Source: Branchiostoma floridae
Taxonomy: Eukaryota; Chordata; Leptocardii; Amphioxiformes; Branchiostomatidae
Direction of reading: 5' to 3'
NCBI RefSeq assembly: GCF_000003815.2
Contig: NC_049996.1
Location: 13,675,297-13,739,296 of the forward strand
Length of the DNA: 64,000 nt
Shown here: one piece after another, positions 6,453-63,723 of the stretch
Layout of the letters: each line of letters opens with the position of its first letter
How positions within the stretch are numbered: the stretch's first letter is position 1
Made by a program: the position numbers and the translations under genes
Notes under the pieces: generated by a model
What the model was told of the DNA's origin: nothing
What the model saw: only the letters and a program-made list of their open reading frames with translations
Database searches by the model: none

Positions 6453-6731
6453 TGCCCTACAGTAAAACAAGGCTACTGTGTAAGACCCTCTGAACCGTTC
6501 AGACGATACGGAAATGATATATTTACGCATTAGGTAGTACCAGTAACCATTGTGTATTTATGTTTGCTTCGTTGTGTATACATACCTTCTGTATCAAGAC
6601 ACTAAATACGGCATGCAATAGGACATCAACATATGTAGAAAATCGGCACTATCTGTGACTCATATTTTCCACAGAGATGTGTCGAGTGTTGAGTTGTAAG
6701 GGTTGAAAACGTGTATCAGTGCTTGGGCAAT

Positions 6732-12700: not shown

Positions 12701-12820
12701 CAGGGTTACTACTGGAGATATGACGATGAGATAGGCAGCATCGCCAAGTGCTACCCACGCCCTGTGGCTCTGTACTGGAGCGGATGTGGAGGGACATCAT
12801 GGGAGCGGAAACAGTTATAA
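6732..12820 (+). CDS. secreted matrix metalloproteinase with haemopexin domain (MMP paralogue A)
   Basis: Extracellular zinc endopeptidase of the M10A/MMP family, 478 aa. Exons: 6732-6984, 7419-7643, 8214-8477, 8995-9117, 9861-10034, 12423-12820. Every intron is phase 1 and splits a glycine codon. The ATG at 6732 begins a signal peptide (residues 1-21). A short acidic propeptide follows with Cys59 in FCGFD, then a convertase site RQRR (76-79). The catalytic domain has the structural-metal loop DGYPFDG, the zinc motif HELGHSLGLGH (His201, Glu202, His205, His211) and Met-turn Met219. The hinge contains PCPR. A four-blade haemopexin domain runs from TCSAPYD to YWSGC, with the two cysteines expected to pair. 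There is no GPI or transmembrane tail. The canonical PRCGxPD switch and the globular ~80-residue prodomain are absent. It lies tail to tail with paralogue B. The family is certain; orthology to a vertebrate MMP is not. Confidence 0.92.
8523..8795 (+). pseudogene. two decaying tandem copies of the 3' end of MMP-A exon 3
   Basis: Immediately after exon 3, its last ~100 bp and splice donor are repeated twice. Copy 1 (8523-8627) still reads GGCGCGCTCATGAGAC through GGCCATGTACGGTACG. Copy 2 (about 8718-8795) is more diverged and has internal deletions. Donor-equivalent junctions lie at 8478, 8622 and 8789. Neither copy has an acceptor or the zinc-binding part, so neither can replace exon 3. They are relics of an intron/exon-edge duplication. 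Confidence 0.8.
10120..12420. other. large last intron of MMP-A
   Basis: Non-coding. It contains a copy of a dispersed repeat near 10125-10225 (TCCAGTTGCTTGAGTA, then TTTTTGGC and CATCGACG) that is also found near 13972, 14311, 25545 and 44655. I see no further exon. Confidence 0.5.
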
Positions 12821-34761: not shown

Positions 34762-36773
34762 TCATTGTAGCACTGCGGCTAGCGACACGGCGATCAAAGC
34801 TGACGTCATCGCGATTTGAGGAAGAACAGCTGTCCCTCCGTTACACTTATCCTTGGTACAACACTTCGAGGAAGTAACTGAAAATGTAAAGCACAACATA
34901 GATAAAAACAATTAAAATCGCTCTTTTCTAAAACAAACAAACGATACTAATTATAATCACGTGGTCAGGAATAAGGTCACGTGTTCTAAGTGATTGGCCA
35001 TTCATACGTGAAGAAGGTTGCAGCTAGCCTCCATATCAGGCTCTCTAGGGCCTTTTTGGCTCATAATACACTTTTGCTGGCCATTTCTTTTTGTGCTGGG
35101 TCGCTGATTGCTGGCCTTGTCTGNNNNNNNNNNNNNNNNNNNNNNNNNNNNNNNNNNNNNNNNNNNNNNNNNNNNNNNNNNNNNNNNNNNNNNNNNNNNN
35201 NNNNNNNNNNNNNNNNNNNNNNNAATAGCCAGCAAAAGTGTATTACGACCCAAACAGGCCCTAGAGAGCCTGATATTGAGGCTAGGTTGCAGCAGGGATG
35301 CCCAGGAAGTTATGTTCAAACAAAATGTAGCTGTTTACAATATATGTTATCCACCAATACTCGTACAAACTTTTATCTACTGCCCAACAGTGGAGCTGCT
35401 ACCAGTTGAACCAAATGGACACTTACCTGTACAGTTACTGATATCAGCATTGCCTCCAAATGCCTGACAGGCTGCTGTAACGTTAGTAAGGGTTGTTGAG
35501 CTGCACTGCGAAGTTCCAGCGCAGCCTCGGCCGTACAGCATGGCGCCCGATGAGTTAAACTGTAGCTTCATAGACTGCGAGAAAGAGAAGACAAAGCATG
35601 TAATGCTACAGTCACATGTCTAAACGGATACCCCTCCGGGCAGTTTCCTTAAAATCATCCCGGGGCCCGGCGGGAAAAATACGCCGTTTCCAGGCCGTAC
35701 CGTTATTGTGAATAAAGTATTATTGGTAGGGCTCCGCCGGACCCTCTGATTTTTAGTGCGAATTAAGATAAACCGGTCCCCAAATGGGTCCTCAAAATAG
35801 GCATACTAGCATTTGAAAGCCCCACAGAAATTACCCGAAAGTGAAAAGAAATTCCATCAAACTATACATCAGAGCATCGGTCTTTAAATATTACTGCGAT
35901 GGTTGGTATAGCCGGGTCCTTCAGAATAAGCATAAGTACAGCATTATACAGCAATCAAATGATTGTCAAGATGCCTGGTGAAGATATCAAACTTATTATA
36001 AACAAATTTTGGAACAACAAAAACAATAGAAAGTCTCACAAAGCAGTTTGTGGTGCCATTAGCACAGGTGGTCAGGTTGGAGTTCTTGTTGTTGCTGCAG
36101 TCGTCATAGGCCGATCCCGTCATGCCACTGCACGTGTAGCACTGCAGGGACGTCACCTGGCCGACTGGATTCAACGAAATCAAACAAAAGAAAATAGATA
36201 TTGGGATTCAAAAATTTGCAAGCAAAAACATAGTGTTAACCTTTACATGATCTAGCCTTAGAAACTTCTGTGATTACTAAAGATTCATAGAAATATTCAT
36301 ATAAATGGTGACCATCACATCTGTCCTGCCGCTTGCTACATAATGTAATCGAACACCACTGGGTATCTACCACATTACCAGTTACCATGGTGACAGCAGT
36401 CTAGTCTAGGTAACTGACCTTATTTGTTTGGAGAAGAAGAAGTAACAGACCAAAAGCATTTATGTTTCCTTTCCGTGAGGATAGGGCGTAAATTTTGACA
36501 TATATCCCGTTGGTATGATGCCAATAGAAATTATTGGTCCCCGAACTGTTATGGGTTAGGGAACCCATGTTTCAAATAAAAGTTTCATGGAACATGCCAG
36601 TATTTTATCGTTTTCACATGTATAAGTTGTCACAAAGTCAGCCTAATAACAGACCTTTGTGTGATGTACTGTGAGGATACAAGTTTGACATGACCATGTA
36701 ACATACAATATTCATAACCTTCCTTACCGCAGTAGATGAACGTCACCAGTAGAGCACACGCAATAATCTTCAT
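34762..36773 (-). CDS. Ly6/uPAR (LU-domain) GPI-anchored-type surface protein
   Basis: Predicted 144-aa three-finger protein. Exons: 36773-36728, 36164-36040, 35574-35427, 34877-34762, with intron phases 1, 0, 1. Residues 1-15 (MKIIACALLVTFIYC) are a signal peptide. The LU domain starts LQCYTCSG and ends CCTKDKCN, the family's closing signature. The mature part has twelve cysteines, slightly more than the usual ten. Several NxT/NxS sites are seen (NLT, NGT, NSS, NVT, NCT). The C-terminus after CNGG is hydrophobic (ALIAVSLAAVLQ) and then stops, as expected for a GPI-anchor signal. The protein probably sits on the outer cell surface. Ligand unknown. A foldback element with an N gap lies in intron 3, so the intron length is uncertain. 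Confidence 0.85.
34984..35310. mobile_element. foldback element containing the second assembly gap
   Basis: The left arm (GCAGCTAGCCTCCATATCAG, GCTCTCTAGGGCC, AATACACTTTTGCTGGC) is inverted on the right side of the 100-N gap (GCCAGCAAAAGTGTATT, GGCCCTAGAGAGC, CTGATATTGAGGCTAG). Arms are ~85 bp. It lies in the last intron of the Ly6 gene. Confidence 0.8.
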
Positions 36774-41380: not shown

Positions 41381-44300
41381 GGAGGTTGGCCAGGCCAGTG
41401 CGACGAGGCGGCCTCCCATGCCATCCTGGATCGCTACGCGGAGCTGGGAGGAAACTTCCTTGACACAGCAGACATGTATGCAATGGGCAAGTCTGAAGAA
41501 TACATTGGCAGCTGGTTGGAGAAGTGAGTATCTTGTTACACGTCGATCAAGGAAGGTTAGACACTCCAGTATTGAGAATATGTATATTATATGTCAACCA
41601 TACCACAGTATGGGTTGAAATATATTGTTTTTCTGGTGTTCTCCTCCTCCGTCTTCTGTCAGATTCATCTCTGTAGCATTGTGAGCTTCTAGGGGTTGAC
41701 ATCGATGTCTCGTCTAGCTACGTTATGATGATTGATCCACATTATTCTGGGTAACAAAAACGTCTTCAACTGTAAAAGTGGGGGGGGGGGGGGCAGAACG
41801 TTCAACGTTTGGATGCCTGGCTCTATGCCTTATGATCCACGATAGACATCAAAATTAAGTCAAAGTGGAAGACGGCTAACATCTTATTTGCCGAGTTGAC
41901 GTTTGGGGATGTGTTGCATTTTAGGCAGCAGCGAGAGAAGTTTATTGTTGCCTCCAAAGTCCGGTTCAACACCAGCCGCTGGACTCAGGACATCAACCGC
42001 TGGGGACTGAGCCGCCATCACATCATGCATTCCATAGACGACAGTCTGCGCAGGCTCCGTACGGATTATCTGGACCTGTACCAGGTGGGTAGATTGTCCG
42101 TTTGTTCATCTGTTGTGCGTTTTACTCTATGAATATTCGCAGGGTGTAATGTTTGTTTTATAACCATTTGGTCCAATGTCATTATCAGGGTAATAATTGC
42201 CATCAACATCAGTACAAATAGCAAAGCCATTTGCCACCAACAAACTGTTTCTTCTCACTTTGCCTCAACTTGTAACACCTTTTCTATTTTCATATCGTCC
42301 TTTGCACACAATGTTAACTCATAACGTAAGCAGATACATGCTTAATTTGCGCGTTATTTATGGCGTCTTCCTGGTGGTGCACGTGTCATTTGTAATCTCT
42401 CGTCATATATAACCAATCTGGTCCAAGGGGCCGGAAGAGAGCGCATCATATCGCAATGTGTAAAGCCCATCATGTTGTAGACACAATATTTTCAGACAAT
42501 GATTTCAACAGGAGTCTATTTAAGACAGGTTAGCTATTGGGTATAGTTTCCTCCCTAACCGCACGTCACCATTTTAGATCCACCTCTGGGACGAGGCTGT
42601 CCCCATCGAAGAGACCCTGTCAGCTCTGAATGACCTGGTGCGCGCAGGGAAGGTGCGTTACCTGGGCGCCAGTAACGTCAAAGGCTGGCAGTTGCAGAAG
42701 ATTGTTGATCTTAGCAAGTACATGGGACTCAACAAGTGGATATCTTTTCAGGTGCGAAGTGTTTAGTTTCAAAACGTGCAATCTTTGAAAGATTAACAAT
42801 AGGGAAGATATTTGCCACTCATTGGAAATTGAAACTCACATTAACGATTTGTACCTGTCAGGTCCGTAGTTAAAAATAATAGTCCGCCGATAGTGCTACC
42901 GTGTGGATTTTGAAAAAAGAATCACATATAAAGAGTAGAGTGATGTTGATCTTGAATTCCAGGCGGAGTACAGCCTGGTGTGCCGTGGAATAGAGTGGGA
43001 GCTGACTGATGTCTGCAGGCGGGAGGGTATCGGGATCATCCCGTGGAGTCCACTCAAAGGGTGCGTTGAATAATCGTCATCCTTTAGTTCAATTTCTTTG
43101 AGCCATTTCCAAGTTGACGAGAGTCATATGAAACGTTCAGCAGGACATTCCACTCATCTTTTGGCGACAATGGCTGCTAATTTGGGGATGATGCCTGTTA
43201 CTTTAGAGTTTTGTTTCATATTGCTTTATCCATGTAGCAAAAAGAAAGTATTGAATCATTCATCCGGATATCCTTTAAGTGACGTCACTGTTAACGTTTA
43301 TCTATTGATCAGAGGTCTGCTGACTGGGAAGTTCAAACGAGAAGCCGCTGCGCCCGAGGGAAGCAGGATCGCACACTCCACAAAGACTGGCCATACCTTC
43401 GAGGCGGCTCCGGATTTCGAGAAGGCCAAGAAAGATGACAAGACCTGGAACGTACGTCCTTGATGTCATAAAGAAGGTTGCCGAAGCACACGGTAAGAGT
43501 AACATATTATATGTATCATCTTTCCATATTGTTATCCAACTCTATATGTATATCGGTACATCAGTTCCTACGGAAAGATACAATATTATCCTGTGTCAAC
43601 ATTGCCATGAGACTAGAACCATATCGACTTTTTTTCCCTTTCGAAGTCAATAAGCATAGCTCAACTTGCATGCCACCAATACCGGTTACCGCAAAATGAC
43701 ATAGATTTATATTAATCGCCAGCGCTAGAATGTACTTTACCCTTCTGAGCTACATTCTTGTATGGACTACCATCATCATCTTCTATGGAATACCCTATGG
43801 GAGGAGAATACCGCAGTATCTGATAAGTGTTGAACTGATTATGACCGTTACTTTCAGGCAAGACTGTGGCTCAGGTGGCAATCCGCTGGCTGCTACAGAA
43901 GGACGTGGTGTCGTCTGTCATCATTGGCGCGAAAACTCTTCAGCAGCTGTAGGACAACATGGGCGCCTCCACTGGCTGGGAGATCACAGATGAGCAGGTG
44001 AGGGAGCTAACAGGCATTTCATTAAGTTCAATATCCACATTGCATTTAGTCAGCGCAGGAAAGCTAGTGCCAGGCAAGACAGTTTGACAGAATACCGTAA
44101 ACGTGAATATTGTCCATTGAAAGTCAATGCAAACACAACGTGATGGATATAACGTCAGAACTGCTAAGAAGAGTATTCCTCTCAACATTAACCTGTGACT
44201 TGAGATCTAAGATAATGTGCTCATGATCAACGAGTGAGGAATCTTGAACGCACACAGGCATCATGATGATGGTGGCAGACCAGAAAGGCACTGCACAAAA

Positions 44301-44544
44301 TGACATTACAGATGCTTGGGAAGATTTGTGGTCGGGCTTTCCAAATCCAGATGAATGTGTTTGTATTACAAATAGATTACTTTAATGAAGAGAAGGTTAT
44401 TACATTTACCACTAACGTTACCCTACGTTGACCATGTTCCAGATGGCAGAACTCGACACTGTCAGTCAGATGGATGCGTTCTACCCCTACAACATGATCA
44501 ATTTTGCGAACAACGACAGGGTGAGGAAGAACATGTGTCAGTAA
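41381..44544 (+). pseudogene. aldo-keto reductase copy 1, degenerate
   Basis: Counterparts of exons 2-8 of the intact copy are at 41381-41523, 41925-42084, 42578-42751, 42963-43060, 43313-43492, 43858-43997 and 44443-44544. All have good splice sites and correct phases. The catalytic Asp, Tyr, Lys and His codons survive (NFLDTADMY, VASKVRF, LYQIH). Three defects are seen. Exon 1 is not found upstream. Exon 6 is 180 nt instead of 176 because ACGT is doubled at 43450-43457, which shifts the frame to a TGA at 43461. Exon 7 has TAG (43950-43952) where copy 2 has GAG. Intron and 3' sequences still match copy 2, so the duplication is recent. An assembly error could explain one lesion but hardly all three. 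Confidence 0.8.
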
Positions 44545-44984
44545 ACACGTGACACAGGACATCACTCTGTAGAGTGTCTACCTGCTGTACAACCCAGCTT
44601 GGGTCGACAGCACGGTTCAGAAGCTTTTATGAACGTCAACAGTGGTTTATCATACATACTTGATTTTGGAATCCAGTTGCTTGTCAATGAGTAACTGCTA
44701 TTTGGCATGCCTTCTTACCTGGATGTCTAACCTTAATCGACGCATTATACATTATTGTTTGGATGTAATTGTTTGAGTCACCATTCAGTCAACGATTATA
44801 GTGCATCTTGCAAACTTGAACACCATGTTTTAGTTCGTTCACGAGAGTTATTAATATGTTGATGTTCATACGTGTTTCTTTGCTTGACGGATGTAATGCT
44901 TTCTTTCCTCGTGTTTATACCGGGCAGCATTCATTAGTACGGATGGCCATTACTGAGGGGACTTGATATGCCTGCACTTGTCAA

Positions 44985-44994
44985 AATAAATAAA
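44985..44994 (+). promoter_or_regulatory. polyadenylation signal of reductase copy 1
   Basis: Overlapping AATAAA hexamers (44985 and 44989) 441 nt past the stop codon. The same AATAAAGAGA context follows copy 2. Confidence 0.55.
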
Positions 44995-45049
44995 GAGAAA
45001 TCTCTCCAAAAGCATTGCCATATCTCTTTAATCTCTTAATCAAGACCAG

Positions 45050-45303
45050 CGTGTCCAGGTAAAAAAATACAAAAAAATCGAAGTTCTGCTGCAGTACCAA
45101 GATCACATTCCAGGGTCCAAAAATCGACCTTGACCTTCGTATTATCAACACCTACCAACATGCCAAATATCATCGTAATACATCCAGAAGTTCTAGAGTT
45201 TTGGCTTTTGCTGACCACAAATATATGGAAACACAGACAGACAAACAAATAGACACAAAGACAGACGCATCAAAAACTATACCTGCATTTCTCATAGAGG
45301 TAA
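45050..45303. repeat. copy of the 40320-41165 repeat family (3' part)
   Basis: Shares GTGTCCAGGTAAAAA, GAAGTTCTGCTGCAGTACCA and TGACCTTGACCTTCG, then the ACAGACAGA block and the ending ACTATACCTGCATTTCTCAT plus AGAGGTAA with the longer copy. Confidence 0.7.
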
Positions 45304-45676
45304 CTATCTACAGTGGCATGCCATATGGAGTTGATTGCTACAAATACAATCTACATTACAATTCCACGTCTTGGTAATTCAGTCTTATGTTAGGATATGT
45401 TTGAAAACGGTGTGAAAATGCCTAAAATGCCTCGTGACAGCGAAGAGGTCCATGACCTTTCGGATTTTTACCACAATCTAAAATTTTAATTTTAATTTCT
45501 GTTTGGAGACAGTGCTCAGGGGTAGTACCAGTACAAAACCAGTTTTTCTTGTTGGACTCAGGTGAGCACGGGTGTGCCGTCGATACTCGCTCACCGGGTA
45601 CAGGTGCAGGCAGAGGTCAAAGGTCGTATAAGCGCTATAAGGAAGTATAACCGCACTTACTAGTACTTAAGTCAAC

Positions 45677-46634
45677 ATGGCCGACAAGACTGAGTACCGA
45701 TTCCTAGGCGGCAGCGGTTTGAAGGTGTCCAACATCTGCCTGGGCACCATGACGTTTGGAGACTGGGTGAGTGCGAAGACGTAGACCGTGCTCTGTGTGG
45801 GTGCGTGGGTGAGAGTTCCGAGGAGTTATGAGAGATTTCTTATTGGGAGGTTTGTGTGTGTGTGTGTGTGTGTCTTTTTTTTTTGGGGGGGGGGGGGTCA
45901 TTCAACTTTTTGCCTAGTACGTCACGACAGTTCAAGGTTTTATACCCAAACGGAATAATTGTGGCAATAAAAACTAATGCCATGGCGACGGTTTTATTGT
46001 TTTCAAGTATTATTGATTGTTGTTGTAGGTGTGTTGTATTTACTGTAATTTTTGATTTTATGGCGGTAACTTAATTTTAGCGTTTTTAGCGCCCACTAGC
46101 CGAGCGCTAAATTTTCATTACGTGACTTTTTCATTACGCGAATACACCCCCCTCCCTCTAATGTCGCGGCACCGATTTCTGGTTTTGTTATATACGGTCA
46201 CGATCTAACTCTTATCCTTTACAAAAACGTGCACACAGTACACTAGAAATTCACACAGGAACAAGAATTTCGTCAATCTTCAAGAAATAATTAATATAAA
46301 ACATGTATTTAAATGGAAAGTTTGTCGTCATTTCTTTTACAAAATGCAGTGAATGCATGCTGACGTACACAACACAAATTCGTTACGAGCTGAGCTGCAT
46401 ATTTACACAACTTATTTTATCAATATTATTCTAACGTTACGCTACGATTTAGAAGTTTGTCCATAAAATATACAATACAGTTACGAAATTCACGTTGTGC
46501 TACGATGTTACACAAGACTTAGAAAATGTCGGCGTCATCTTAGCGTGCAGACAACAACAGCAAAAATGGACCGTGCTCTGTGTGGGTGCGTGGGTGAGAG
46601 TTCCGAGGAGTTATGAGAGATTTCTTATTGGGAG

Positions 46635-46689
<55 letters not shown>

Positions 46690-49600
46690 TTGGGGGGGGG
46701 GGTCATTCAACTATTTGCCTAGTCACGACAGTTCAAGGTTTTATACCCAAACGGAATAATTGTGGCAATAAAAACTAATGCCATGGCGACGGTTTTATTG
46801 TTTTCAAGTATTATTGATTGTTGTTGTAGGTGTGTTGTATTTACTAGTATGTTAGATCCTTTCACCTGGCTGTGTGTATGAAGACTGTTTTACGACATTA
46901 ATTTAGGACATTGCTGAAGAAAAGCGACCTCTTGTGACGAGTGGCCTATCACAAATGTTTGTGATTGATTATGCAAATGAGGTCCTCATTTGCATAAAAG
47001 ATATCAGTTGATCATCTTCTTTACCTAAATAACAATGTGTTCAGAGTATGAAAGTCTTTGCAAAGAAAGCTATTGTCTCATAAATTATGTAAATGAGACC
47101 AAAATTTGCATGACTTACGTCCACATGTTCAACTTAACGTACATGTTGTTGCCAAATATCGCAAGAATGCAGTTTTCATCATTAAACACTATAATATCAA
47201 TTTCTCAATTTCTTTATTATGTAAATTAGGCAACAATTTGCATAATTGATGTCTATCGATATTTCTCTCTTTTCTACGTATATACAACATGTATGACATG
47301 TGTCCTAGTAGTAATTAGATACTGTGCTTAGTAAACTATGCTCATTAATTGTGCAAATTAGCCCCTAGTTTGCATGAATAGCCCTTATTCGTGAAAGGCA
47401 TCTCCCAAGTTATCTACATATGAAAAATTACGATGATCCGTCAACCCCTTCCCGAGTTATTCCCTTCCAAAAGGATGGTGCATTTGCGAACGCGCAGACG
47501 AATTGCAATAGAATTTTCAGAATTTTTACCACTTAATATATACTTAACAGCATGTCTGATATTTCTCTCTTTTTGAGTTACATATAGCATATTTTGAGCC
47601 TTCTAACACCAAATACAGCGTAGTTATAATTATGCAAATAAGCCCCTGATTTGCGTAATTAGCATTTCATTCCGTAAGTTATCTCTGAAGCTATCTATTC
47701 CAAATATAAAGAAGATCCGTCAATTCATTCCCGAGTTATTCCACTCTTAAAGGATGATGCAACTAAAGTTCCTGACATGCCTGTAGAAAAATTCCTGAAA
47801 TTTTGGGAAGCCTTGTCAAACGGTCAAAAAGTATACATTTAGGCTTGCTTGCCCCTAAGGCGTCGCAAAAAGACTGCTTGTGAAGACGCGTGGGTACGTA
47901 AACCCAGTGTAAACATGTGTTTTGATGAAGACATTGACTGTGTTGGTCCTGTCAGCTTTTGCCCGGCCAGTGCGACGAAGCGGCCTCTCATGCCATCCTG
48001 GATCGCTACGTGGAGCTGGGAGGGAACTTCATCGATACTGCAGACGTGTATGGAGAAGGCAGGTCTGAACAAATCATAGGAAGCTGGTTGGAAAAGTAAG
48101 TGCAGTTAAAATTGTATTCAACAACCACACAAGGGACCTTGTGATGAGAAATATAATTCTTAATTTTGTACCATTTTCTGCTTGAAGACAGAACAAGAGG
48201 CTAAAAAAACGGATGAAGTTTTTATTTCATTTAGAAATCGGCATTCCTTGTCCAAGTGTAAGGAGATACGGCGGTCGTGGTCATGTTGTCCATGTTGGTC
48301 ATGAGTCAGTCCAAACAGCAATCTTCCAGGTTTCACATAATGTCAAGACTAAGAAAGAGCGTTGTTTGATGTTGTCCGAAAGGTCAATTATCTGGAGACT
48401 ATGCTACTCGTATATTCCAGGCAGCAGCGAGAGAAGTTTGTGGTGGCCACTAAAGTTCGCTTCGGCAAGGGCATTAACGGGGTAGGACTAAGCCGCCATC
48501 ACATCATGCAGTCCATAGACGACAGTCTGCGCAGGCTCCGTACGGACTATGTGGACCTGTACCAGGTAAGTAGATTTGTTCTTCTTCATCTCATCAACAT
48601 ACTTAAGAACCTCACACAGCAGAGGCTTTATGTTCTATCAAATCAGCTTCGTCATCTACGTCGACCTCCTTATCAATGTCATGGAATTTCGACATGCCCA
48701 TGCAATGTTTCAAGACACGTTTTTAACCGACGATATGCTTGAAAATCAGAAGCTGGGCGGCTGTATCCTCGTGCGCAGCCTTTCAAAGACATTTGAATTA
48801 AACAGATTCTTTCTCGACAAACACGTGTGCATAAAATCGCCATTTTGTTAGACTGTAACAACGTCTGCTTCACACTGACAATGATCTTTGCAGGTTGTTG
48901 AATCGACCATCCTATCGCAGCTTCGACCAGTTTGATATTATGATGATTACATCTGTCAGTGATGTTTACTAGTTTGTATTGTATTGTATATTCGGTAGGG
49001 TAAACCGCCTCGTGGCGTAACACCCTAGGTTTGTATGCATGAGACGCATAAGTACCAGTGTATCAAGACAGATTTGATTGATCTACTCACACCGTGAGGA
49101 CATGTACACCCACTCTTTTTTTATTAGCGTGCTAGAGGTGTTGCTTTCCTCTACGCCCTTCTCTATAAACTACATGGTTTTGAATGGTAGAGCTGTTGGA
49201 TATAACTCAGTTATTTACAAACCCATCATGTATGATCTCATTCTAGATCCATATGTGGGACGAGGCTGTCCCCATCGAAGAGACCCTGTCGGCTCTGAAT
49301 GACCTGGTGCGCGCAGGGAAGGTGCGTTACCTGGGCGCCAGTAACGTCAAAGGCTGGCAGCTGCAGAAGATTGTTGAGCTGAGCAAATCCATGGGACTCA
49401 ACAAGTGGATATCTCTTCAGGTGCGACATTTTTGGGGTTTAGAACAAGCTGTCTAAATAGGAGTTTGCATCGGTCATATTTGGCTCTTGGCTTTATCTAT
49501 GCAAGTCCAACGTGAAATGAATAGCCCACCGTTTGTGTGACCTATGAATTTTGAAAAAGCATCACCTATATCATTAAAGATAATGAATCCTAATTCCAGG

Positions 49601-51128
49601 CGGAGTACAGCCTTTTGTGCCGTGGGATAGAGTGGGAGCTGACTGACGTCTGCAGGCGGGAGGGTATCGGGATCATCCCGTGGAGTCCGCTCAGAGGGTG
49701 CGCACGGTGCTTATAGTCCTTCAACATGAAATGATGAATCCATTTCATACATCCTTTTTCTTCGACATCGGTGGATAAGATAGGAAATGATGACTATTGA
49801 TTTGATATTGTCTTGATAATGATCATTTCATCAGTAAAGAGAAAGCATTGCCGAATTTGCGCTGTACATTTTGACTTTTGAACAGAGGCCTGCTGACTGG
49901 GAAGTTCAAAAGAGAAGCCGATGCGCCAGAGGGAACCAGAATCGAGCACGTCACAAAGAAGGGAATGATTTTCGAGGGGGTCCCGGATTTCAAGAAGGTC
50001 AAGAAAGATGACAAGACATGGGACATCCTTGATGTCCTGAAGAAGGTTGCTGATGCACACGGTAAGAGTAAAATTTGTAGTACAGTACATGTATCAACAT
50101 AGTACATAATGGTGCCAAATTGTAATTATAAGAGCATGTATATGGTCTCGTTGCCGACGAATCGGCTACCCAAGGTCGTAGAAAAATTAAAGGGGTACGG
50201 TATAATTACTAGTGGTACTAGTTAAGTCATTGTGTAACTTTAATTCCATCGGTTCCAATGGAATTCCTCATCGATCACTGGCACTAGAGTAGCGCATTGT
50301 CAGTAGAGCTGTCCATACAGACTTAATCAGCAGCTGGTTGCCCAAAAGGACATCTGTCATCGCATGTGCCAGAATTGGTTTTATGCCTGGTCGGAACTGC
50401 ATCTTTGTGTTGACTACAACATGGGCCAGAAGGGAAAATCCTTGCTATAGATCTGATCATGTTTGAAAATTTCAGGTAAAACCCCGGCCCAGGTTGCAAT
50501 CCGCTGGCTACTACAGAAGGACGTGGTGTCGTCTGTCATCATTGGCGCGAAAACTCTTCAGCAGCTGGAGGACAACATGGGCGCCGCCACTGGCTGGGAG
50601 ATCACGGAGGAAACAGTGAGGAAGCTAACAGGCATTCATTAAGCTCAATATCCACATTGCATTTAGTCAGCCCAGGAAAGCTAGTGCCAGGCACGACAGT
50701 TTGACAGAATACCGTACACGTAAATATTGTCTATGCAAACAAAACGTGATGGATATAACGTCAGAACTGCTCAACATCAACCTTTGACTTGAGATGTAAG
50801 ATGATGTGCTAAAGCACGCAAGAAATATTGAACTCACGCAGGCATCGTAATGATGGCGGACCGGAAAGACAATGCACAAATCCACATTGCAGATGCTTGG
50901 GAAAATTTGCGGTCAGGTCTTCAAGATTCAAACAAATGTGTTTTGTATTACAAGTGGATTAATGCCATTAGAAGAGAAAGTTATTACATTTATTACTAAC
51001 GTTACTCTTCTTTGATCATGTTCCAGATGGCAGAGCTCGACACTGAGAGCCAGATGGACGCGTTCTACCCCTACAACATGATCAAAAGGCGGAACAAGGA
51101 CAGGGTGAGGAAGAACATGTGTCAGTAA
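45677..51128 (+). CDS. aldo-keto reductase, YajO/IolS-like (copy 2, intact)
   Basis: Predicted cytosolic NAD(P)H-dependent oxidoreductase of the AKR superfamily, 354 aa. Exons: 45677-45766, 47956-48095, 48421-48565, 49247-49420, 49600-49697, 49886-50061, 50476-50615, 51027-51128. The frame is continuous across all seven introns. The N-terminus reads [20 protein letters not shown] with the family's LGTMTFG. The catalytic tetrad is visible: Asp57 and Tyr62 in NFIDTADVY, Lys88 in ATKVRF, His127 in [18 protein letters not shown] and the cofactor-region phrase SSVIIGAKT lie further on. There is no signal peptide or membrane segment. The substrate is unknown. Animal homologues are often named after bacterial YajO, but sequence alone does not show that activity. 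It is the only complete member of the three-copy + strand array. Confidence 0.9.
45784..46845. repeat. direct duplication of ~265 bp inside intron 1 of reductase copy 2
   Basis: 45784-46044 and 46569-46845 are nearly identical (GACCGTGCTCTGTGTGGGTG through GGTGTGTTGTATTTACT). They differ mainly in the length of a (GT)n tract (about 11 against 24 units) and a G run. The block begins just after the exon 1 donor. Confidence 0.9.
46940..47770. repeat. array of paired octamers ATGCAAAT...ATTTGCAT
   Basis: Inverted octamer pairs or close variants occur near 46971/46988, 47083/47103, 47218/47236, 47352/47370 and 47633/47650. They are separated by AT-rich sequence and by GATCCGTCAA.CC.TTCCCGAGTTATTCC, seen twice (47433 and 47717). 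The same pairs occur in the 40320 copy, so they belong to a repeat family. Confidence 0.6.
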
Positions 51129-52225
51129 ACACGTGTGGTACAGGACATCACTCTGTACAACTCAGCGCGATTCGGCAGCATGGTTCAGCATCTTGTATGA
51201 ACGTCAGCAGTACATACACATAATTGTTAGGACATAATTGTTTGAGTCAAACTTCTATTTCTAGTTAACGTTACTGCATCTAATATGAGGGAACCTGTAG
51301 TCAGTTCGTACACAACGACCATCAAAATGTTGCTGCCCGTAACGTTACGTGTTTCCCTGCTGCATAGATGTAATACCTTAATCTTGTTGAAAGCAGACAG
51401 AAATCATTTACTGTGGATGGTAAGCACAGTAGTAAAACACTGTGCAATGAGTGTTTTACTACTGAGTATAAAACACTTGAAATACGTATACGTACTTGGA
51501 AAAATGTCAGTGGTGTCATTTTCATTAATTTACGAGAACCCAGGCCCAGTCCCCGGTCCTTGTCTGACCTCACACGTGGCCACCGCGTGTCCGTCCTTGC
51601 CTATTCACACTTCCGCCCACCGACACCGGGGCTCTCATTCTGTCTCGCGGGAAGCGAGGCGCACGAGACTCGCTCCCCGGCTTTCGACTCACCGCCAACC
51701 CCTTATCTCCTCCAATTTCCTTACCATAGATAAATTGTAGTATTTGCAGTTACGTAGAGTTGTCTTCATGATTAGTTTGTGTTCATATGTTATGATGTTG
51801 AAGGCTCGTTCTACTGACCTTTATCGATGTTATGGGCGTGTTTCTGTGGAAAAGTACGAGAATAAATCTTTTCACTTTTGTTTGCCAAACGCGTTTCGAC
51901 TCCAGTTGCTTACAGTTAATTACTAAGATGATTAGACGTATCCGTTCTACTTACAGATGATCAAATAAAGAGACGACACTCCAACAGCTTTGTCATATCT
52001 CTGTATTGGCTCCGTTAGTAGTGCCTTATACGATTGTGATATTCAAGCGCCCTTTATGCCATGGCTAGTGCTGTTGGTCATCAACGCACAGACTAGCAAA
52101 CCAAATGAGACCCTATTTTAAGACCCTGTAACGGGACACCATCTGGAGATTAACACTGCACGATCGAGGTAATTACGGTTTTGCAAGTGATACATGTTCT
52201 AAGACATTCCAAACAACGGTTGCGA
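51129..52225. other. 3' flank between reductase copies 2 and 3
   Basis: Holds the 3' UTR of copy 2 and a pyrimidine-rich GC block (51540-51720) open in two + frames. That block has no domain, splice context or codon pattern that I trust. Confidence 0.4.
51964..51969 (+). promoter_or_regulatory. polyadenylation signal of reductase copy 2
   Basis: AATAAAGAGA 836 nt past the stop, matching the signal after copy 1. Confidence 0.5.
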
Positions 52226-52383
52226 CATCGGTGGATAATTATGCTTATTGCATTAAAATCGTTTTGATATCATTCCACCAACTCATTAAAAAACAAAATA
52301 TCACCGAATTCGCGCTGTACATTTCGTCTTTTGAACAGGGGTCTGCTGACTGGAAAGTTCAAAAGAGAAGCCGATGCGACCAC
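52226..52383 (+). pseudogene. orphan fragment of reductase exon 6 with its upstream intron
   Basis: Matches copy 2 from about 49765 to 49925: the intron phrase GACATCGGTGGATAA, GCGCTGTACATTT, the acceptor TTTTGAACAG, then ~40 nt of exon reading [13 protein letters not shown] (52339-52378). Homology then stops abruptly. It lies 5' of copy 3's first exon, so the array has been rearranged. Confidence 0.8.
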
Positions 52384-52584
52384 CTGTACATAGAGACAGA
52401 TTTCTGTTATCCCGGAGCCGCAGTAATGCCCTTTGTTTTGGGGCCCAGATAACCTTTCAGCTTTTGACAACAATACATGGTTGAAGACAATGCACAGGTG
52501 ATTATGGATGTAGCGAGGTCGACGCAATGCCCGCCGGATACAAGTGCAGGCCGAAGGTCCAGCGCTGCAAAAGCTGGAGTGGAC

Positions 52585-53032
52585 ATGGCCGACAAGACTG
52601 AGTACCGATTCCTGGGCGGCAGTGGGCTGAAGGTGTCTAACATCTGCCTGGGCACCTTGACGTTTGGAAACTGGGTTAGTGCGAAGATGTGGACCGTGCT
52701 TTGTGTGTGGGGGTGAATGTTATGTGGGTTCTGAATGGTGATCATCAAGTTTTTGCATAGTCACGCCAGACCAGGGGTTTATGCCCAAAGGGCAAAGCCA
52801 GCTTGTGAAGACGCGATTGTAGTCAATTTTCCTCCTTACATAAAGAGGCGTTTATACAGAGACATGGACTATGTTGGTCCCGTTAGGCACTTTTTCCCGG
52901 CCAGTGCGACGAGGCGGCCTCCCATGCCATCCAGCTGGATCGCTACGTAGAGCTGGGAGGAAACTTCATCGATACAGCAGACATATATGCAGAGGGCAGG
53001 TCTGAGGAAACCATAGGAAGCTGGTTGGAAAA
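52585..53032 (+). pseudogene. aldo-keto reductase copy 3, truncated after exon 2
   Basis: Exon 1 is 52585-52674 ([29 protein letters not shown]) and exon 2 is 52887-53032 ([27 protein letters not shown]). Both have intact splice sites, and exon 2 has one extra codon (Gln) relative to copy 2. Exons 3-8 are not found downstream. In copy 2 exon 3 follows within 330 bp; here SINE, MITE and LINE insertions follow instead. The frame is open upstream of the ATG to 52477, but MADKTEYRF is the likely start by comparison with copy 2. Without the Lys and His of the tetrad it cannot make an active enzyme. Confidence 0.8.
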
Positions 53033-53745: not shown

Positions 53746-56700
53746 TTTATTGTTTATTGTTTATTCAACGGATCTCCATTAGTGATTACAATTGAAATTG
53801 CATCTCTAATCTTCCTGGAGTCGTTACAAAAACACATTACATGATACAACATTAACACATTACTTATTTACACCTAACAACGCTTAAATCTAATCTAAAT
53901 AAGTCTCAAGTAGCTGAGAGGTCAGAGGTCAGTGTCAAAATTCTATACATAATTTTATATACATAGATGTCAATGAATGTCTTTACCACCATTTCTGTAG
54001 AGGTTTGTGTTGTGTCTGTGTTTTTAGTCTGTCTTTGATGTGTTGCTTGAACATGGATGGTGTAGATGCTTTAATGTATTGTGGGAATGAGTTGTAGGAT
54101 TTAATACATCTATACAGGAAAGTTCTGGTTGCTGCGCAAGTTTTAGGTTTGGACAGTCTGAATCCCCCCCCTTGTGCTAGGCGTGTGTTGTGTCGGTGGG
54201 TGTTTTTGATTGTGTGTAGTCTCTTGTAGGTAGCTTCTGGTTTCTTAGCTGTAAGGAGTTTGTGGAACATAGTGAGGGTTCTGGTGTAGAGTCGTTCGTT
54301 TACCTTTGGCCAGTTCAGCTTTCTGTGTAGGTCATCAGTGTTGGAAGTGTACTTTGCATTAAGTACTAGCCTGGCAGCCTTATTTTGCAGGGTCTGTAGT
54401 TTATTTAAATTAGGTTGAGAACCTGCAGACAGAAGACATGCACAATAATCCATGTGACTCAGAACAAGTGTTTGAGCAACAGTTTTTAACGTGTCTCTAG
54501 TGAAAAAGTCCTGAGATTTAGCCAGTGCTGCTAGTGCGCGTGCCATTTTAGATGTTACTTTGTCCAGATGTTGTGCCCAGGTTAACTGCTGGTCCATCAA
54601 CATTCCTAGAAGCTTAGCCTGCTCAACCTGTTCTATCATTTTGTTGCGCATCGAAAGCTGTAAGGCTGGCTTATTTTTTAGTTTGTGCCGGCTTCCAATA
54701 ACTATAGATTTGGTCTTGTCAACGTTGAGCACCAGTCTGTTAGCTTGAACCCAGTCATTAATATGAGTGAGTTCAGCTTGAAGAGTGGCTTGTACCTCCG
54801 CTATGCTGGGGCCTGCTGCAGATGGGGTTGTGTCGTCTGCGTACAGTACTACGTCGCAGTGTTTTACCACTGTAGGTAAGTCGTTAGTATATACGCAGAA
54901 CAGCAGTGGGCCTAAACAGCTACCCTGTGGTACTCCACTATTAATCTCTCTGTAAGTCGAGATACCACCATTTACAAAAACGGCCTGCATCCTGTTTGTC
55001 AAATAACTTCGCATCCAGTGTAGGGCAGAATCCACGAAGCCATAACTTTTCAGTTTGGCTAGCAATATGTCATGATTTACAACATCAAACGCGGCGCTAA
55101 AGTCCAAAAGGACAGCGCCTACCAGGTTTCCCTTGTCAATTTCCTCAAGCCATTTGTCCGTCATTTCTACCAATGCACTCGCGGTGGAGTGTTGTCGCTT
55201 ATAGGCATGCTGGTAGTCGGACATGATGGCGTTAGAGACAAGGTAGGTTTGTATCTGATTGTTGCATATCTTTTCCAGTAATTTGCTTAGAGCCGGAAGC
55301 AAGCTGATTGGACGACTGTTGGGTCCATTTAATGGAAGTGCCTTGTTTTTTACAAGAGGTAGTATTTTGGCTCTTTTCCACTCAGTGGGGAATGTGTGTT
55401 GTTTGATAGAGCAGTTGAAAATGTGACACACTGGATTTGCTATATGATCGGCCGCTATTCGCAATAGCGTGTTATCAATGTTGTCAAACCCCGTCGATTT
55501 ACAAGGCGGAAGTGAAGTAAGTAATTCATGTACGTAGTTCTCTGTTAGTTCTTGAAAGGAAAAAGAACAGCTTTTTGATGTCATGATGTTTTCGTTGATC
55601 GGTGCAGTGACACTGGCTATATCTACAGGACTTCGCGGTGTCAGGTCTTCAACTTTTTTTACGAAGTAATCATTGAAATATTCAGCAATGTCCCTAGGTT
55701 TTGTCAATGTCTTACCGTTTGTCTCGATGAACGTTGCAGTTCGACGTGAGTTTCTACCTAGAATCCCATTCAGTACTTGCCAGAGCTGTTTGCTGTTTCT
55801 GTCTCTACAATGTTCTTCAATCAATTCCCTGTAGTGTGTTTTCTTCTTCCTTCTATTTTCTTTGACAACTACGTTTCTCAATCGTTTATAAATATCGTAG
55901 TCAGATGCTAGACCTGAAGCTTGCGCTGCCTTTTTAGCGTCGTCCCTCATGTTCATAAGGTCTCTAAGGCCTTCATCGATCCAATGAGCCGGGGATGACC
56001 TTACAGATCTCTTACGGATGGGAGCGTGCTTGTCGGCTATTTGTGAGAACAGGGACATGAAACAGCTCAAGGCATCATTAACATCTTCTTCATTATTCAC
56101 AAGGTGCCAAGGAACTAGAGAGACGTCATGTAGGAAATTTTCTTGATTAAACTTACTGTAAGAGCGTTTGAGTGTGATGATTGGATGTCCCTTTGGTACC
56201 TTAGTCTTCCTTGTGGTGTGTATCAAGTTATGGTCTGTATATCCTAACGGGATTGATCTCGTGTCGGTGAATATGTCAGATCTGTTTGTGAAGATGAGAT
56301 CTATACAGGTGCTGGTCACATGATCACCATTTGAGTGTGCTACCCTTGTCGGCTGCTTTACTAGTTGGTGCATGTTGAGTGTAGAGGTTTCCAACTGAAG
56401 TCTGCCGCGCAGGGGACAGCTGGTGTCCGACCAGTTAATGTTGTAATCCCCTAATACCAACACCTCTTGATTACCGTGTGTGACTGTGTCGAACATATGT
56501 GTGATTCTATGTAGGTAGTCTATCGTGGCATTTGGTGGTCTGTACATGCATCCTACCGAGATCGGCTTGACATAGGGAAGATGTATCTCAACCCAAATAG
56601 CTTCAATTTCCGGCATCTGTAAATCTAATTTACATTTGTATGGAATGTTGTCTTTGATATACAGAGCAACGCCTCCACCCTTGTTATTACGGTCCCTTCT

Positions 56701-57004
56701 CACCAGGGTATAATCTGCTACACTCAACACTCCGTCATCTATTCCATTATCGAGGTGTGTTTCAGAAATAGCTAAAATATGCAAATTGTTAGAGCACAAT
56801 AAGTCTGATATTTCGTGCACTTTATTCCGCAGGCTATTTATGTTGATATGACCGACGTGGAGTCCTTTACTTGCCAGACCAAGGTCTTCAGGGCCGGGGT
56901 TGGTGTGGATATCTCCGGACAGTAACAGCACGAACATGGCTAGTAGTGTAGACACATCAGTTGAGGCTCTATTCTGTGTTCTGTGTGTCGATTGTCCTCC
57001 ACTC
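53746..57004 (-). mobile_element. APE-type non-LTR retrotransposon (CR1/L2/Rex-like LINE)
   Basis: The element lies on the - strand with its 3' end at 53746. The 3' terminus is a short tandem tail (read on the - strand, AATAAACAATAAACAATAAA), as in CR1/L2-group LINEs. A perfect 11-bp target duplication AGTGGGTAGAG flanks it (53735-53745 and 57005-57015). The 5' untranslated region is only ~50-65 nt, so a slight 5' truncation is possible. The open frame and perfect duplication imply recent insertion. Confidence 0.9.
53983..56938 (-). CDS. LINE protein: AP-like endonuclease and reverse transcriptase
   Basis: One uninterrupted frame. The first ATG is at 56938; the frame is open up to a GTG at 56955, which gives the 990-codon length. 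The N-terminus is hydrophobic and runs into SGDIHTNPGP, resembling a 2A ribosome-skipping motif with His in place of Glu. The endonuclease half shows HININSLRNK, ISETHLD, GGGVALYI, GDYNIN and YTDHN. The reverse transcriptase half shows LDFSAAFDVVNHDIL, SGVPQGSCLGPLLF and the catalytic YADD, then LGMLMDQQLTW. The product nicks target DNA and copies the element RNA into it. No stop or frameshift is seen, so it may be competent. No separate ORF1 is visible. Confidence 0.93.
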
Positions 57005-57275
57005 AGTGGGTAGAGTGTTCGCCTTGCATTCGGAAGGGCGTGAGTTCGATCCCCGGCCGATCCCCGGCCGAGTCATACCAAAGACAAAAAATGGTACATG
57101 CTGCTTTCTCTGCTTAGCACTCAGCATTCGGGAAAGAGTATGGAAGTGGAACACACACCACACACACACAGTGATTGCGTTGTGTGGCCCAGGGCTAAGG
57201 AAACAGAGATGGGCACCGCCCTATGCGCCACCAGGCGCGGGAAGGGTTTAACTTTAACTGTCTCATCCTGTTGGC

Positions 57276-59309: not shown

Positions 59310-60301
59310 CTTTTCATCCAGTACACACAGCACATGGCCACGATCATCAGAAGAATGGCCACGCCTCCCACCGTCACTGGGATGATGATTTCCAAATGAT
59401 CAAATTGTGACGATGATTCTGCAACAAAATTGGGAACCAATCACCAAGGATGGTGTGTTACGTCGAAGGGCAGTTATTATGGTGACCGGCTATGTTGACA
59501 CAGATACAATCGCTCAACGCTTGTAGTAATGACCGAGGAAAATATCAGATTATAATACTAGAATCTCAATGGATAGTTTAGTTAAGACTGTGACCAATCA
59601 TTAAACGCTTTGTAGTTTTATCCTGCACTAGCACATTAATCCGCTAGAGGCTCTCGTACACCGGGAAATAGATAGGCTCAAGTATTCTCCACGTAGCCAG
59701 GCAAATGTGATAAGCAGGGCCATAAAGAACATTGGTAACAACAGTAACAAGACAAAGTACTTCAGACACCAACAACGGTGGGACAAAAACAAGGATTTAA
59801 CTAGGCGGCCCAAACATACACCACTTCGTCCTTACATCACAAGCTACCTGCTGACAAAAAATCGAGACCATAGCACGCCATCAAAAGCTACAAAAAAAAA
59901 ACACGAAAATTCTGATGCAGTACCTAGGTCATATACCAGGAGGCCCAAAATTGACCTTGACCTTTTACATACTTAGTTTCCTGGTTAAGCTGAGCTGAAC
60001 CTCTCGTCTGGTGACAAAACTGTCTCTTGGGTTCACCACTGTCATGCTGATACAAATGGAGTTGTAACGTCAGAATCTAATGAAAAGATGAGAATAAAGG
60101 TACATAAAAACACTATGTACACGGGCAGGCGTATAATGTAACCTGGAGTAATGTCACCCAGAAAAAGTTACAAGAGTAATGTGGCAGAGAATGTCTGTAA
60201 ACCACATTATTTACATTTAAGTTTACAAGTACAGTTACCTTCCCACGTGTGTTGTTCGGCCGAAGACACACCGACGACAGTAGAAGAATGGCAAGTGTCA
60301 T
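59310..60301 (-). CDS. tentative small single-pass membrane protein gene (TM exon firm, others weak)
   Basis: The exon 59418-59310 is open after an acceptor TTGCAG. It codes SSSQFDHLE and a transmembrane segment (IIIPVTVGGVAILLMIVAM, CCVYW), then MK and a weak GTTGGA donor in phase 2. Reading on instead gives RLENITLQP and a stop at 59282. Its phase class (1 in, 2 out) equals that of the lectin receptor's transmembrane exon, suggesting a paralogous module. Upstream, 60301-60239 reads MTLAILLLSSVCLRPNNTRG, a possible signal exon ending in phase 0. An exon from about 60075 (ILTLQLHLYQHDSGEPKRQF) follows a very good acceptor in phase 0. The phases between that exon and the TM exon do not join, so at least one exon is missing or misjudged. 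Confidence 0.4.
59795..59965. repeat. fragment of the 40320 repeat family
   Basis: CTAGGCGGCCCAAACATACA, CTTACATCACAAGCTACCTG and AAATTGACCTTGACCTTTTA match 40826-41000 in the same order. Confidence 0.7.
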
Positions 60302-61101: not shown

Positions 61102-63723
61102 TCATGCAGTACTTCCATACAACTCATTGTCAACGTACCCTTCCTCGTTACCTGCTGTAGTAAACGTGATATTACCTGTAGTCTCATACAACATGTTATC
61201 AACAGAACCATCTTCCTCATTGTCTAGTTCATTGTCATATTGGCTATTTGAGACACCTGTCGTCTTATGTGGCTTGGCATACATCTCATCTAAATTTGAG
61301 ACATTGGATTTCTTCTTCATAGGCTTAGCATAGAGTTGGTCAACATTAGGGGTTGGCTTCTTCTTGTTTGGTTTTGCGTAGAGGTCGGCAATGTTAGGCG
61401 GGTCTGTGGGGTTGCAGTCTCCGTCCATTCGGTACGTGGCGCCTGTGTCTGTGAGCTGGATGTTGGAGGAAGTTGTGACGTCATCATAGATGTTGTTGTG
61501 CACGCTGGTTGGGGAGTCTGCTGAATCAGGTCTTTTTCTGTCACGAAAAACGTACTATGAAGACATTTCATCTCATACAGTTACAATTTGAACATGAATG
61601 TCTTGTTCTGAAATGAAATATATGAAGAAACTGGTTTCAAATGACTTATTCAAGTCTAAAATGGGCATTCAATGTATATATCTTAAGCATAACACAATGC
61701 CACCATTCTTGTAATATAACATATAGCATAAAACGTAGTACCTTCGTTTCCAGAAAATGAAACCCGCAACTCCAGCGATAAGAACGACAGCAGCCACACT
61801 TGCACTGACAGCGGCTATGATTATGATGTTGTTTTGTGATGGCCCTTGAATGATAGGAATTTACAGAAAAAGGTGCACTTTGAGTGAACAAAACTCATGT
61901 AACATTTAAACAGTCTACAAATCAAATCAATTGAACGCTTCAATGATATGTTGGAATCAGCCTTTAAAAAGAATCAAAGTACAAAATGATGATGAATAAC
62001 AAGAAAGTACACAATACTCAAAAGTATACAATAGTATACTGTGTGTGTGTGTCATTCGGTCTATACAGACTATGAATTATATACTGCTAAGGAGAATAAT
62101 CTGAAAAATGAGAGCAACTTACGACCGCCGTCCAGAGCACCAGAATTTCCCCTTAAAGTAGTTTGGACTTCAACAATAGTTCCTGAAACGGAAATCATAT
62201 TAAATAATTTACATGTAACATCTTGTATACAAGATAACGTTATTTCAAATGCAACGTTATTTCAAATGCAATTTCCAGTGTGATTGTTCAGTTCATCCAT
62301 GAAAGATACATAACCTGAAGTGTTGATGTCTTCAGCTGTGAAGCCTTGGTCAGTTGTTTTCAGAACTGTCTGTGGTCCAGCTCCAACTGTTGATTGAGGC
62401 CGAATGATGGACCCTACTTGGAGATATTGATGTTAACATTTGAGAGATTTTTCCACAGTGATCAGTACAAGTCACATTAGATTACCAATCGTCATTTTGC
62501 GACGAAAATCACCAATCAAAACTTTGTAGTGAACTTAACCTTGTGCCTTCATAATAATAAAAAATGATATGAATATTACAAAAAATGCCACAACATCACT
62601 TCCTACGAAACTTTTTGTCATATACACAATTACGAGTGGTAAAAGGAACTGTGGCTACGGTTGCAGAAGAACTTGTACTTGGCTGAACTGCCGTGATAAC
62701 CTCTGCATGTAATGTAATAACAAAGACGTAGATATGTTATTGACACGGATGATAAGCCTAGGTCACATTATGTAGTAAAGGAAACATAGACGTGCCAAGA
62801 AAAATCTTTAAATCTTTCAACTAGCAGCTATTTTACTAATCAGTGTTACAATCGAACAAACAAAGAGAAGTTGAAAACAGTACCGAAGGAACAGCTGTAC
62901 TTTAGAGTGAGCACTTTGGATCTTCCTGGACAGGGATCTTCAAGTACATCGTTGTGACTCCTGACCTCGCAGGTGGATTTGCCATCACACAAATCATGTA
63001 CTCGAGCAGTAACGTCAGAAGAGCAGTCACAACCCGGAAAACCAAGGATAGGAAAACAAACCCCACCACAGCGGGCTGTATAGTCTCTTGCCCCATATGA
63101 AGCTGAAATAATGTCGATTGTGCCTGGTCGGATACACTGAATGATCTTATATTTGCCTTCGCAGATGTATGTCGTTTGTGGACCTGGAATAAGAAGTTGA
63201 ATAAGTAACGAATAATAACTATTTTAATGAACGAAATGGCACCAATTGGAATTATGCTAGTGTTGATACGATTTTGAACTGTATTGTATTGTGTTGACCT
63301 TTACACTAGCTAAACAGTTTGCCTGTGTTGGTTCGTTGTGAACAAACGTAAATGAATGAAAACAACAACAACCTGTTTTAAGATTTCAAATGACAAACTT
63401 CTACTGATTTTTTAGAAAAATGTGACAAGCTAGCACTAGTCTATTCTCCTTTTTACTGTCACAGTAAGTACACACAGGTTGCAAAGTTATACAAAGGGTT
63501 ACGACTCACGAGTAATTTTCCTTCATGATGATTAGTGCCTATCTATTGTTGTGTCATACCGTTTCCTTGTAAAGCATAAACCCTAGTTTAGATACAGCTC
63601 AAGATGGCTTATTGTGTACATACCTTCGTTTTCTTGGCTGGAAACTTGGACTAGAAACATGGACACAAAGAACAGAGAGAATACGACAGAATACCCCATT
63701 CTCCTGCTTTCTAACGTAGACAT
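61102..63723 (-). CDS. SUEL/galactose-rhamnose-binding lectin single-pass receptor with multi-tyrosine tail
   Basis: Predicted 386 aa. Exons: 63723-63624, 63183-62884, 62702-62634, 62413-62315, 62182-62123, 61844-61742, 61531-61102. The first five introns are phase 1, the last is phase 2. A signal peptide (hydrophobic VVFSLFFVSMFLVQVSS) is followed by one SUEL-type lectin domain filling exon 2 (about 34-133): YICEGKYKII, SASYGARDY, LCDGKSTCEV and DPCPGRSKVLTLKYSC. These domains bind galactose/rhamnose-type sugars. A Ser/Thr-rich stalk (134-209), a transmembrane helix (about 215-237) and a 143-residue tail follow. The tail has nine tyrosines, three in YAKP (295, 311, 328), plus YDNE at 342. 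YxxP is the known docking motif of Crk/Nck-type SH2 domains and YxN of Grb2. A sugar-sensing, tyrosine-phosphorylated receptor is my inference. Confidence 0.9.

Follow-up and report, generated by a model that had tools for sequence, protein, structure and literature searches.

A predicted single-pass SUEL-lectin receptor of Branchiostoma floridae whose tail, with three YAKP motifs, recurs in apparent paralogues

The window analysed here is a stretch of 64,000 nucleotides of the Branchiostoma floridae genome (C18:13675297-13739296, contig NC_049996.1), and genome searches covered 513431437 bases in 431 contigs. Two matrix-metalloproteinase-like genes lie in the window in opposite orientation (6700-12820, plus strand, and 18706-23076, minus strand); hemopexin repeats were confirmed by Pfam and the catalytic HELGHSLGLGH was recognized by eye. 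Cysteine-rich exons on the minus strand at 35377-36207 (LQCYTCSG...) look Ly6/three-finger-like by eye; for 35947-36207 the one match in Pfam was to a different family, and it was weak and did not reach that family's cut-off. On the plus strand, repeated exons at 41836-53000 resemble aldo/keto reductase and are perhaps a small tandem cluster; 48353-48742 matched Pfam with E 1.4e-12, the others were assigned by eye, and 52468-52716 had no Pfam match.

The gene of main interest is a 388-residue frame assembled from seven exons of the minus strand (63723-61102; Table 1), the model being read from the sequence alone. All six introns are GT-AG with matching phases, phase 1 for the first five and phase 2 for the last. 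The predicted protein consists, in order, of a signal peptide, one SUEL domain, an S/T/P-rich stalk, one transmembrane (TM) helix followed directly by WKRRKR, and a 145-residue tail. An earlier note on this DNA had described a single SUEL domain, a TM segment and a tandem YxxP tail, and the seven-exon model together with Pfam bears this out. The tail exon reads on the minus strand, frame 1 of the plus strand being interrupted by stops over 61102..61531. Two AATAAA/ATTAAA sites were found downstream of the gene, at 60656 and 60437. A separate TM exon (SSSQFDHLEIIIPVTVGGVAILLMIVAMCCVYWMK; 59310-59418, minus), with phases 1 in and 2 out like the TM exon of the SUEL gene, sits about 1.7 kb downstream of the stop codon of that gene; it could belong to a second receptor gene or provide the SUEL gene with an alternative end.

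Table 1. Exons and tail motifs of the predicted SUEL-tail gene, in positions of the window.
Feature	Position	Strand	Basis or remark
Exon 1: start codon and signal peptide (MSTLESRRMGYSVVFSLFFVSMFLVQVSS...)	63624..63723	minus	phase-1 GT donor; signal peptide recognized by eye
Exon 2: SUEL / rhamnose-binding lectin domain	62884..63183	minus	Pfam, solved RBLs, genome HMM, AlphaFold2
Exon 3: S/T/P-rich stalk	62634..62702	minus	gene model, phase 1-1
Exon 4: stalk	62315..62413	minus	gene model, phase 1-1
Exon 5: stalk	62123..62182	minus	gene model, phase 1-1
Exon 6: juxtamembrane and TM helix, about residues 216-240	61742..61844	minus	phase 1 in, 2 out; hydropathy 2.76
Exon 7: 145-residue cytoplasmic tail and stop codon	61102..61537	minus	gene model; homologous tails elsewhere in genome
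Tyr261 in YDDV, Nck-like YDxV (consensus from general knowledge)	61486..61488	minus	gene model
YAKP 1, Tyr297	61369..61380	minus	gene model
YAKP 2, Tyr313; in invariant YxKPxK columns of four-tail alignment	61321..61332	minus	gene model, alignment
YAKP 3, Tyr330	61270..61281	minus	gene model
Tyr344 in YDNE, Grb2-like YxN	61237..61239	minus	gene model
NxLY-type VDNMLYE with Tyr361; V, N, L, Y, E shared by all four tails read	61183..61203	minus	alignment
C-terminal YVDNELYG, Tyr378 and Tyr384	61114..61137	minus	alignment

Pfam placed SUEL_Lectin at residues 48-131 (E 8.5e-12, 45.7 bits against a cut-off of 31.4), the sole Pfam family above its cut-off in the protein. The SUEL exon alone matched solved rhamnose-binding lectins (RBLs) with a best E of 2.4e-24, ADGRL structures being among the matches; it scored 49.2 bits in the genome HMM search, and its AlphaFold2 model was confident (mean pLDDT 88.6, pTM 0.78). 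In the latrophilin-1 RBL, Glu42 and Lys120 are required for sugar binding and Tyr63 and Gly117 touch the sugar, and RBL domains borne on receptors often lack these residues (PMC2430599, in the excerpts available). In the HMMER alignment to 2jx9, the equivalents of all four are identical in the window's SUEL (CEG, YG, DPCPG..K), and Ala stands at the aligned position of latrophilin's structural Arg65. By this alignment the window's SUEL retains the latrophilin-1 sugar-contact residues, sugar binding itself being putative. Neither of the two paralogue SUEL exons that we read (L055 and L056) has an equivalent of Lys120, and their first cysteine and glutamate are either beyond the fetched stretch or missing; sugar binding looks lost in both. 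We also considered recent copies of the SUEL domain, and this idea was dropped: among 46 other matches, the best-scoring is 41% identical, and the top identities are 43% (over nearly the whole domain) and 47% (over 48 residues).

The tail reads ...IADLYAKPNKKKP...VDQLYAKPMKKKS...LDEMYAKPHKTTG... and carries nine tyrosines. The three evenly spaced YAKP motifs announced in the earlier note were found, 16 and 17 residues apart, the numbering given there (Tyr295, Tyr311 and Tyr328) being two too low. Its six further tyrosines, with YDNE (344) and LYET (361) among them, are present as well; the lysines that it placed after each YAKP form a KKK run in units 1 and 2, and unit 3 has a single K. In 200000 shuffles of the tail, three YAKP were never reached and at least one was reached 541 times, and at least three YxxP of any kind occurred 3064 times. 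Three YxxP are thus by themselves only moderately rare, and what is improbable is chiefly that YAKP is repeated. The motif is spelled TAC GCA AAA CCA, TAT GCT AAG CCT and TAT GCC AAG CCA in the three units. Over the 17 codons of each unit, codons for the same residue are differently versus identically spelled 6 to 4 times between units 1 and 2, 4 to 2 times between units 1 and 3, and 3 to 4 times between units 2 and 3. Since the silent sites have diverged, the duplication is not a recent one, and YAKP is maintained at the protein level. ITAMs are pairs of YxxL/I and ITIMs follow I/V/L/SxYxxL/V/I; none of the nine tyrosines has L or I at +3, and Tyr261 (YDDV), the one with V at +3, is preceded by Asn at -2, so that the window's tail fits neither pattern. 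Nck prefers pYDxV, and YDDV is the sole YDxV-type site in the tail; the earlier proposal that Nck is recruited by YxxP is thus not supported. No solved structure matched the tail at E<=1.

With a query of 95 residues there was a single match at E<=0.001, as if the tail were unique to the window's gene; this was rejected when the looser whole-tail query found homologues at C18:8440847-8441260+ (E 1.1e-7, 40%), C18:7679104-7679463- (E 0.002, 36%) and C14:2499738-2499932+ (E 0.074, 37%). Use of the C18:8.44M tail as query added C13:21179594-21179809- (E 0.013, and 0.0105 using its last 56 residues), the C18:7.68M tail added a weak fifth, C18:7520146-7520355- (E 0.34), and the C14 tail matched itself and the window's tail only (E 0.022). 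At least four other tails are thus present in the same genome at E<0.1, the counts of these searches being lower bounds since only the best candidates get scored. Weaker matches at C1:11427788 (E 0.88), C7:16757640 (E 1.2), C4:27112082 (E 2.3) and C6:22622167 (E 4.6) were excluded as members.

Three of the other tails were read, and they are 42, 33 and 34% identical to the window's. Across the four, 14 columns are invariant, including Y-x-K-P-x-K, G-x-V-x-N-x-L-Y-E and the C-terminal tyrosine; the latter, Tyr384 in the window's gene, is of the NxLY form in three of the four. This paralogue family, and the invariant NxLY-type motifs with it, had been overlooked in the earlier note. YxxP occurs three times in the window's tail and two, two and three times in the others, and two were reached in 5591 (L052) and 2612 (L053) of 50000 shuffles. 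The counts of YxKPxK are 3, 1, 1 and 2, reached in 0, 49, 62 and 0 of 50000 shuffles. A single YxKP column is common to all four tails, and the triplication is peculiar to the window's gene. YxxI is found in all three other tails (YSTI; YASI; YDTI and YSTI), in no case with I/V/L/S at -2, and is absent from the window's tail. Conversely, YDDV and YDNE are absent from these three; as no YxN was found in them, recruitment of Grb2 through YxN, suggested earlier, is not supported as a general feature. When identical residues were compared with Met and Trp left out, different codons outnumbered the same codon in all six tail pairs, from 27 against 20 (window and C18:8.44M) up to 28 against 10 (window and C18:7.68M). 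Moreover, the L052 and L053 tails, the two whose starts were read, begin with Arg at an apparent phase-2 acceptor, as the window's tail does. As judged from these sequences, the genes that combine SUEL with a YxKP/NxLY tail look like paralogues kept under selection at the protein level.

SUEL matches are numerous in the genome (at least 108 at E<=0.01, 102 of them above the Pfam cut-off). Besides the window's own, four tails were found at E<0.1, and three of them lie on the same strand as, and 2536, 3665 and 5335 bases downstream of, a SUEL match, namely C18:7681999- (E 5.3e-4, below the cut-off), C14:2495846+ (3.9e-6) and C13:21185144- (2.7e-5). The chance of at least three of four tails lying near a SUEL match is about 1e-9, a rough figure that ignores clustering and uses the 108 matches with a 6 kb limit chosen after the distances were seen. 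For the C18:8.44M tail, no SUEL match was found in the genome HMM search or in a search with the C18:7.68M SUEL exon. The latter exon (L055) has relatives at C18:18511054- (82%), near which the tail searches of the genome gave no match, and at C18:7530282- (62%), 9.9 kb upstream of the weak tail at C18:7520146, which is therefore counted as a possible member. Four genes including the window's, perhaps five, thus look to combine SUEL with the tail, and one more tail stands alone; the links in the paralogues are ones of position and strand, a gene model having been made for the window's gene alone. That the tail might be a general feature of SUEL genes was considered and rejected, as a four-tail HMM run against 9220 ORFs from the window and loci L001-L051 found below E 1 only the window's tail (the L001 match is the same place); L002-L031 are stretches of 3.2 kb and L032-L051 total 9.5-9.9 kb per locus, and tails behind long introns would escape. 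The tail-bearing family is small and old.

How these receptors compare with known ones bears on their possible function. DCBLD1 and DCBLD2 (ESDN) are likewise single-pass receptors with many cytosolic YxxP, and the window's gene model has several; their YxxP motifs were shown to be required for CRKL-SH2 binding, and their number is eight in DCBLD1 and seven in DCBLD2 compared to three here (PMC6029619, available text). Their ectodomain is of the CUB-LCCL-discoidin type, in contrast to SUEL here, and Pfam did not assign the window's protein to the DCBLD family. Choanoflagellate TM proteins (PTSG_05573, A9VAL3 and others) carry cytosolic YxxP repeats proposed to recruit Crk, but have other ectodomains (DUF5011, thrombospondin repeats, C2/EGF), and three of five have SH2-like domains (PMC5043372, in part). 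Since TM proteins with repeated cytosolic YxxP are thus known, the phrase "undescribed system" of the earlier note was too strong. In p130Cas/BCAR1, tandem YxxP serve as multivalent Crk-SH2 sites, as proposed below for the tail (PMC2689226, from the portion available); unlike the window's receptor, this protein is cytosolic, with an SH3 domain and 15 YxxP. EVA-1 and EVA1C (C21orf63) share with the window's receptor a single pass and an RBL ectodomain, but have two RBL domains, in which C. elegans EVA-1 has replacements of key sugar residues (PMC2430599). The window's protein has one SUEL stretch, and the window one SUEL match. We know of no YxxP tail in EVA-1 or EVA1C. Latrophilins (ADGRL) and PKD1L2 also bear SUEL/RBL domains but are multi-pass, whereas the window's model has one TM exon, followed by the tail and the stop codon, and no 7TM or GAIN match in Pfam. 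In the limited, open-licence literature searched, we found no description of a receptor that joins SUEL or a rhamnose lectin to a tyrosine or YxxP tail, nor of a lancelet YxxP receptor; predicted orthologues may well be already on record. The parts are of known kinds, and the combination of SUEL with a YxxP tail and the conserved tail family seem new.

We consider it probable, though not strongly so, that the protein is a multivalent phosphotyrosine scaffold for Crk on a single-pass lectin receptor, working like DCBLD1/2. YxxP is the Crk/CrkL SH2 binding consensus (PMC6029619, PMC5043372), which supports Crk, one of the SH2 adaptors named earlier, as the most likely SH2 partner, and a choanoflagellate Crk SH2 binds pYxxP (PMC5043372). 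Three or more YxxP within one 100 kDa intracellular protein were called rare (PMC2689226), and engulfment involves Crk, DOCK180 and Rac both in worms and in mammals (PMC2672617). Crk-like SH2 exon pairs are found in the lancelet genome at C3:19.834M (60 and 79%) and C11:12.89M (61 and 67%). Because YxxP is the Crk consensus, tandem-YxxP scaffolds are known and Crk-like SH2 exons are at hand, we propose a clustered Crk scaffold, probably for adhesion or uptake. For the window's receptor we infer expression, surface location, phosphorylation, Crk binding, ligand and output. The SUEL domain, on its mucin-like stalk, would bind a glycan or a glycosylated ligand; clustering of the receptor would lead to phosphorylation of the tail by Src- or Abl-family kinases, and the tandem pYxxP could then recruit several Crk molecules via their SH2 domains. 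Crk SH3 partners of the DOCK/C3G type would in turn drive Rac/Rap-dependent adhesion, spreading or engulfment. The conservation of NxLY among the tails suggests a second arm through PTB domains, these motifs being likely PTB-type docking or sorting sites. Against Crk speaks the nature of the sites, which are YAKP/YSKP with basic residues after them, compared to YDVP in the Crk-binding peptides whose sequences were at hand (PMC5043372).

The same NxLY motifs could instead be the main output, the tail docking PTB domains or clathrin adaptors (in the paralogues also through YxxI) in an endocytic or CED-1/Draper-like uptake receptor, with YAKP secondary. We regard this as possible but rather unlikely. 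GxVxNxLYE contributes six of the invariant columns against four for YxKPxK, and three of the four tails have two [DE]NxLY, a count attained 1, 0 and 0 times in 50000 shuffles, but the motif lacks the Pro of NPxY, any PTB or adaptor partner is hypothetical, and the recurrence of two or three YxxP in every tail read would be left unexplained. The YxxI of the three paralogue tails points to sorting or to other SH2 partners, against a pure Crk reading, and we therefore give Crk slightly less weight and NxLY or sorting slightly more, although the window's own tail has no YxxL/I. That the basic YxKPxKK segments work unphosphorylated, as membrane- or SH3-binding patches without Crk, appears to us quite improbable: in one set of aligned columns all four tails do share Lys at Y+2, Pro at Y+3 and Lys at Y+5, and the YxKPxK counts given above exceed chance, but the Tyr is equally invariant and would be needless for a purely basic patch. 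We know of no SH3 consensus that fits YxKPxKK. That the protein is a lectin without signalling function or a decoy, its tail drifting and its YAKP repeats a neutral local duplication, is very improbable, as YAKP was kept despite diverged silent sites and motifs are conserved among paralogue tails of only 33-42% identity to the window's.

If the Crk-scaffold mechanism is true, a single polypeptide would couple a lectin domain of wide occurrence to the Crk-DOCK-Rac route, and this would offer an invertebrate counterpart for comparing vertebrate DCBLD-type scaffolds, which were termed orphan receptors with ligands unknown in 2017 (PMC6029619, available text). A single family with a conserved tail, and with ectodomains keeping or losing the sugar pocket, would be a clean test system. 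More speculative, and in our estimate unlikely, is a lancelet pattern-recognition family whose rhamnose/galactose-type lectin would be coupled straight to multivalent Crk recruitment, such that bacterial or egg glycans would set off Rac-driven engulfment with no need of an ITAM, a kinase or a co-receptor, while ectodomains diverge, some losing sugar binding, and the YxKP and NxLY tail stays constant.

Some minor observations were made besides. The Crk-like SH2 halves at C3:19833965-19834267 (minus) lie in one open frame of 379 residues, which may be an intronless Crk copy, and the C11 copy is split over about 8 kb. In the window, an open exon at 40095-39852 (minus) with a phase-2 acceptor weakly resembles the first part of the YAKP tail (GAACYINENCNTVNPDDIELLHINPNKIK) and was considered as belonging to a neighbouring gene with this tail; it has no YxxP and no Pfam match, was not matched in the four-tail HMM search, and compared with the tail gave E 0.25 by phmmer and E 1e-4 over 29 residues in the pairwise comparison. 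Between two receptor-like pieces lies an open frame of 1029 residues (53983-57072, minus), which by eye looks like a non-LTR retrotransposon with endonuclease and reverse transcriptase.
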